A stretch of DNA of 64,000 bases from Terriglobia bacterium (lineage in GTDB: Bacteria > Acidobacteriota > Terriglobia > Terriglobales > Acidobacteriaceae): NCBI GenBank assembly GCA_032252755.1, contig JAVUPY010000042.1, positions 1 through 64,000 on the forward strand, in the 5' to 3' direction. Under the pieces are notes generated by a model. It was not told the DNA's origin. It did no database searches and was given only the letters and a program-made list of their open reading frames with translations. The first letter of the stretch is position 1, and each line of letters opens with the position of its first letter. This document shows, piece by piece, positions 62,251-64,000 of this stretch. The translations under genes and the position numbers were made by a program.

Positions 62251-62769
62251 TTACTCCCTCGCGTTCTTTATTGCCTCCAGCACCTCTTCCACGGGCGAGC
62301 GATCGGTTTGCGACGTTCCGACATAAATGTAGCGAATTACTCCGTCGCGACTGACGACGAATGTTGCGGGACGCGCGATGTTGATTGCGTCTGTGCCAAG
62401 GCGGTGATACACGCCGTACAACTTGGTTACCGTGCGTTCTTCATCGAGCAGGAAGGGGAAGGGCACGGGATGCTTGCGGAGGAATTCTTCCGGCTTGAAC
62501 ATGTGGCCGCGTTTCTCCGCCGCGATGAAGACGAGGTCTGCTCCGATCTCTTCGATCTGTTTTTCATATGGCCCTAACTGGGCCATGCGCTTGACGCAGT
62601 TGGGTCACCAGGTGCCGCGGAGGAATTCCAGGATAACCGGGCCACGCGCGATGAGATCCTGCAGCTTCATCTCGATGGGAGTGCCGATGGAATTGAACTC
62701 GTTTGCTGCCCACAGAGAGAAACTGGGGGCAGCGTCTCCGATCTTCAGGGTGTCACTGTTGTGCGGCAT
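62251..62769 (-). CDS. Selenocysteine-containing peroxiredoxin/thioredoxin-fold protein
   Basis: 172 residues when the in-frame UGA (complement of 62605-62607) is read as selenocysteine 55. The frame starts MPHNSDTLKIGDAAPSFSLW, continues IARGPVILEFLRGTW-U-PNCVKRMAQLGPYEK and then FIAAEKRGHMF, DEERTVTKLYGVYH, ARPATFVVSRDGVIRYIYVG. In homologues the RGTWCPNC position is a catalytic Cys of a thioredoxin-type CxxC; here it would be UxxC. A SECIS-like hairpin starts 18 bases after the UGA (62568-62586). A start at 62586 would give an N-terminally truncated protein without the active site. It is divergent from enolase. Confidence 0.85.
62568..62586 (-). promoter_or_regulatory. Bacterial SECIS-like hairpin
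   Basis: AUGGCCC-AGUUA-GGGCCAU: a 7-base stem with a five-base loop whose second base is G. The loop begins 25 bases after the UGA. Stem, loop and distance fit the published model for bacterial SECIS elements (small stem, G among the first two loop bases, 16-37 bases from the UGA). Confidence 0.75.
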
Positions 62770-62809
62770 CAGCAAAAGGGTAGTGCGGGTGCGGAACGGA
62801 CGGGAATAA

Positions 62810-64000
<1,191 letters not shown>

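Follow-up and report, generated by a model that had tools for sequence, protein, structure and literature searches.

A UGA codon probably read as selenocysteine in a peroxiredoxin-like gene of a Terriglobia bacterium

Close to one end of a 64,000-nucleotide stretch of DNA from a Terriglobia bacterium (contig JAVUPY010000042.1, positions 1 to 64,000; hereafter the window), an in-frame TGA raises the question of whether this codon terminates a gene or is read as selenocysteine (Sec). When the triplet is taken as a residue, a frame of 172 codons plus stop extends on the reverse strand from an ATG at 62769 to 62251, and this frame is interrupted only once, at codon 55 (62607–62605, reverse strand), after 54 open codons, as the initial annotation of the region had described. 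Under the standard code the gene shrinks to an open reading frame of 111 amino acids from the ATG at 62586 (62251–62586, reverse strand), which is devoid of the active site. The same annotation had anticipated this truncation and had regarded the full-length gene as unannotated: standard calling does start at 62586, and all NCBIfam models score below their cut-offs for the window protein. As discussed below, the UGA is very probably decoded as Sec, and the locus would thus represent a genuine bacterial selenoprotein gene.

The read-through product harbours a Redoxin domain (PF08534, 77 bits against a cut-off of 26.6) and an AhpC-TSA domain (PF00578, 74 bits against a cut-off of 26). Both matches span the two sides of the TGA, which substantiates the earlier proposal that the codons upstream of it encode a normal AhpC/TSA-type amino terminus. 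Full-length relatives share 50–66% identity with this 172-residue product. The motif surrounding codon 55 is RGTW-U-PNC, and the second half of its UxxC redox motif is Cys58, encoded by a TGC codon (62596–62598, reverse strand) and invariant in alignment A1. It is the sole Cys of the window protein: Sec55 and Cys58 (UPNC) are the only Sec or Cys residues in the product. Across alignment A1 the broader signature FLRGTW-U-PxC is invariant, as is APxF further upstream.

The TGA is a constant feature of the relatives. Homologues (E ≤ 1e-15) are present in 42 of the 298 genomes of the order, and every match covering codon 55 contains an in-frame TGA; phylum-level matches at E ≤ 1e-25 show one TGA in all. 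A position-by-position alignment of the loci alignable at residue 55 places TGA at this codon in 54 loci. Among the loci of window type that cover the codon, the window included, TGA is found in 50 of 50, although in one of them (L082) the sequence immediately before the codon is garbled; these TGA-bearing loci extend to approximately 35% identity and include one Candidatus Methylomirabilota metagenome-assembled genome. A paralogous type, RGHW/RGNW-U-PFC, is represented by four loci (L083–L086) in three genomes of the order, shares about 30% identity with the window protein and has TGA at the same position. Residue 55 is otherwise Cys in two loci and Thr in five, all of which encode distant TlpA-like and Bcp-like proteins. 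Most matches on contigs of the source genome itself (L024–L026, L028, L029) were rejected as orthologues, being Bcp-like with Thr at this position. The initial annotation had proposed looking for Cys at position 55 in homologues: it does occur, but among distant homologues only, namely an Aureibacter protein with RGSWCPYC and the TlpA-like L091 and L094 of the same genome, and not in loci of window type. No close Cys orthologue was seen in the homologue searches of order and phylum. Such an orthologue would probably not have escaped them, because the query had Cys in place of residue 55.

Downstream of the UGA the transcript can adopt a stem-loop, AUGGCCC-AGUUA-GGGCCAU (62568–62586, reverse strand), which overlaps the ATG chosen by gene-finders. 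The hairpin begins 18 nucleotides after the UGA, with 25 nucleotides between the UGA and the apical loop, and consists of a 7-bp stem and a 5-nucleotide loop in which G is second and is followed by U; its energy is −11.8 kcal/mol. Bacterial SECIS elements are expected to have a loop of 3–9 nucleotides, a stem of 4–16 bp, G in one of the first two loop positions, a distance of 16–37 nucleotides from the UGA and a minimum free energy of −7.5 kcal/mol or lower (PMC13188914). The window hairpin lies within every one of these limits, in agreement with the resemblance to the bacterial SECIS model noted in the initial annotation. Taken alone it is modest evidence: 29 of the 1816 TGAs in the window are accompanied by an equally or more stable hairpin within the same limits, and its fold z is −2.74. 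A search of the window with Rfam at gathering scores returned one tRNA as the sole match and no SECIS family.

It is conservation across relatives that lifts the hairpin beyond chance. In a set of 42 sequences, which are related and whose counts are not independent events, 97.6% of the cells of the 5-bp core stem are paired, although one stem pair shows a C-A mismatch in 5 of the 42. Two of the five core pairs display compensatory changes (G-C/G-U/A-U at one and U-A/C-G/G-C at the other). None of 500 shuffles attains the observed pairing, the number of cells changed on both sides or the covariation score. In slid controls pairing does not exceed 47%. The number of double-changed pairs, two, is within the range of the shuffles (162 of 500). 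Synonymous codon choice within the hairpin is also held above background, with GAG in 39 of 39 cases (background 55%), GCY for Ala in 34 of 35 (41%) and CAG in 42 of 42 (71%). These patterns argue for a constraint at the RNA level on top of that exerted on the protein.

The source genome (5.39 Mb, 99.98% complete, a draft of 96 contigs) encodes the apparatus that Sec decoding requires. The initial annotation had proposed a search for selA, selB, selD and tRNA-Sec, and all four are present, which excludes the objection that the machinery is missing: selA scores 563 bits, selB 381 bits, selD 375 bits and tRNA-Sec 65.8 bits (gathering score 47), the latter with anticodon TCA as assigned by ARAGORN. 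A second match above the tRNA-Sec cut-off (C51:433) was discarded as a tRNA-Ser(TGA), and a second SelB candidate (C81:416) reads as EF-Tu. SelD of this genome is itself of the selenoprotein type, with a single in-frame TGA in GUASKL (L018:1501-2421; C11:56299-57219).

Gene and machinery travel together. Across the order selA is found in 136 of the 298 genomes and in 41 of the 42 that have a homologue of the window gene; the remaining genome, G145, yields no selA match, which may be due to an assembly gap, and contains selB at 380 bits. The gene thus occurs in only one of the 162 selA-negative genomes of the order, an association with Fisher p = 6e-15, uncorrected for kinship. Among more distant genomes of the phylum that carry the gene, selA is present in 10 of 10.

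Three other accounts of the TGA have to be weighed. The codon could be a true stop, in which case the functional gene would be the 111-residue frame, intact and opened by its own ATG at 62586, and the upstream part would be decayed or a separate peptide. This is highly improbable: in such a protein the predicted fold would be short of its first three strands and the UxxC active site would be absent, the upstream APxF and FLRGTW residues are invariant in relatives, the ATG at 62586 sits within the conserved hairpin, and the gene is found almost exclusively alongside selA. Equally slight is the chance that the UGA is translated as Trp or Cys, either by near-cognate tRNA readthrough, which is known for UGA in general, or through codon reassignment. 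TGA terminates 9 of the 30 long open reading frames called mechanically in the window, so it is not reassigned; the genome contains tRNA-Sec, SelA, SelB and SelD; and in CxxC homologues, such as that with RGSWCPYC, the position is occupied by Cys and not by Trp. The least credible account, a Cys codon misread as TGA or mutated to it in a pseudogene, has in its favour that a single base separates TGA from TGC or TGT and that the assembly is a 96-contig draft, but we consider it refuted: 49 further loci, in independent genomes and assemblies, have TGA at this codon, and the remaining frame is intact and under protein-level constraint.

Decoding as Sec, the inference drawn in the initial annotation, is therefore supported by the machinery in the genome, by the retention of TGA in homologues and by the covarying stem-loop. 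As dozens of relatives keep the in-frame UGA and the genome possesses the Sec machinery, the active site would be lost from a default gene model. The present reading corrects a gene that ordinary annotation would shorten here and probably in dozens of relatives as well.

Further selenoprotein candidates are encoded in the same genome. A second candidate is a peroxiredoxin with PADWTPTU, the canonical PxxxTxxU form of Sec-containing peroxiredoxins (L093:1501-1905; C70:24979-25383). Another likely selenoprotein, judging from its sequence, is a peroxiredoxin of the Bcp type whose TPGC motif has TGA in place of the Cys codon (KANTPG-U-TIEACG; L092:1501-1911; C11:17308-17718).

The surroundings of the window gene were compared across 41 loci, and no functional clue emerged from the neighbouring genes. 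An enolase gene (62879–64000) is divergent from the selenoprotein gene, an arrangement shared by 23 of the 41; an NmrA-like neighbour is confined, among the loci examined, to the window's own. Many relatives (most of L032–L059 and L074–L080) display a TATTGTyC box and, after approximately 17 nucleotides, a TAMAGT box that ends just 7–10 nucleotides before the start codon, a spacing that suggests a leaderless mRNA. At the corresponding place in the window (62770–62815) the version is weak, with TACCCT located 7 nucleotides before the ATG.

What might the protein do? An AlphaFold2 model (pLDDT 91) and a structure search predict a peroxiredoxin fold: the best PDB matches are all peroxiredoxins, with Bcp4 (3hjp) at Z 23.6 and rmsd 1.8 over 156 residues. 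The peroxiredoxin motif PxxxT/SxxC is not kept, as Arg51 and Sec55 occupy the Pro and Thr positions and Cys58 aligns with the peroxidatic Cys. The initial assignment of the UGA to the first catalytic Cys is accordingly correct for a CxxC-type motif, of which Sec55 is the first residue, but not for true peroxiredoxins, whose peroxidatic Cys corresponds to Cys58. Pro134, invariant in alignment A1, aligns with the Pro of PxTFV in the thioredoxin-family protein 3kcm, which corresponds to the cis-Pro position in oxidoreductases of the thioredoxin type. The model thus portrays a predicted peroxiredoxin-fold protein equipped with a thioredoxin-like Sec/Cys pair. Because a thioredoxin-like UxxC replaces PxxxTxxC and no other Cys is available, fold and motif point to a peroxiredoxin-like thiol/selenol oxidoreductase or peroxidase. 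In the mechanism envisaged, Sec would be made on tRNA-Sec(UCA) by SelD and SelA and brought to the ribosome by SelB acting on the stem-loop just downstream of the UGA. Sec55 would then attack a disulfide or hydroperoxide, subsequently form a selenenylsulfide with Cys58, and be regenerated by thioredoxin or a comparable reductant.

It is possible, albeit doubtful at present, that the RGTW-U-PNC proteins form a Sec-only peroxiredoxin-like subfamily, scattered in one phylum, present in at least one other and devoid of a close Cys orthologue. If this were true, the reaction would require Sec and not just allow it, and annotations in public databases would truncate the gene systematically. To the UxxC peroxiredoxin-like selenoproteins the proteins add a well-supported and apparently Sec-only subfamily that allows Sec and Cys to be compared at one fixed active site.

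The kind of protein is already known. Selenoproteins of the UxxC peroxiredoxin-like (PF00578) and Redoxin (PF08534) types are catalogued as high-confidence predictions, the entries being a Redoxin family protein with UxxC (representatives HEU0032618.1 / MBA3499694.1) and a peroxiredoxin-like thiol:disulfide oxidoreductase with UxxC or UxxU (PMC13188914; PMC9312934). Set beside these families by domain and motif, the window protein shares the Pfam domains and the UxxC with one Sec; it passes the PF08534 cut-off and has UxxC, the features expected of the Redoxin family selenoprotein, to whose catalogued subfamily it may belong. The window gene is a further example of the known kind. Its own subfamily is marked by the RGTW-U-PNC motif; no description of this motif by name was found in the literature searched, and its bearers are perhaps a new subfamily of the known kind. 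ResA and SelL-related NCBIfam models weakly match 29 of 29 alignment members, and for the SelL-related redox protein model NF040769 the window protein reaches 47 bits, below the cut-off of 120. The CxxC peroxiredoxin-like protein of Aureibacter (WP_309940617.1) is homologous over nearly its full length (hhalign 99.6%, E 5e-24) at approximately 31% identity, but bears Cys where the window protein bears Sec. In comparison, the PrxQ/Bcp and AhpE peroxiredoxins exhibit the same fold (Z 22–23.6, rmsd 1.8) at approximately 20–25% identity, whereas their PxxxTxxC motif is not kept in the window protein.
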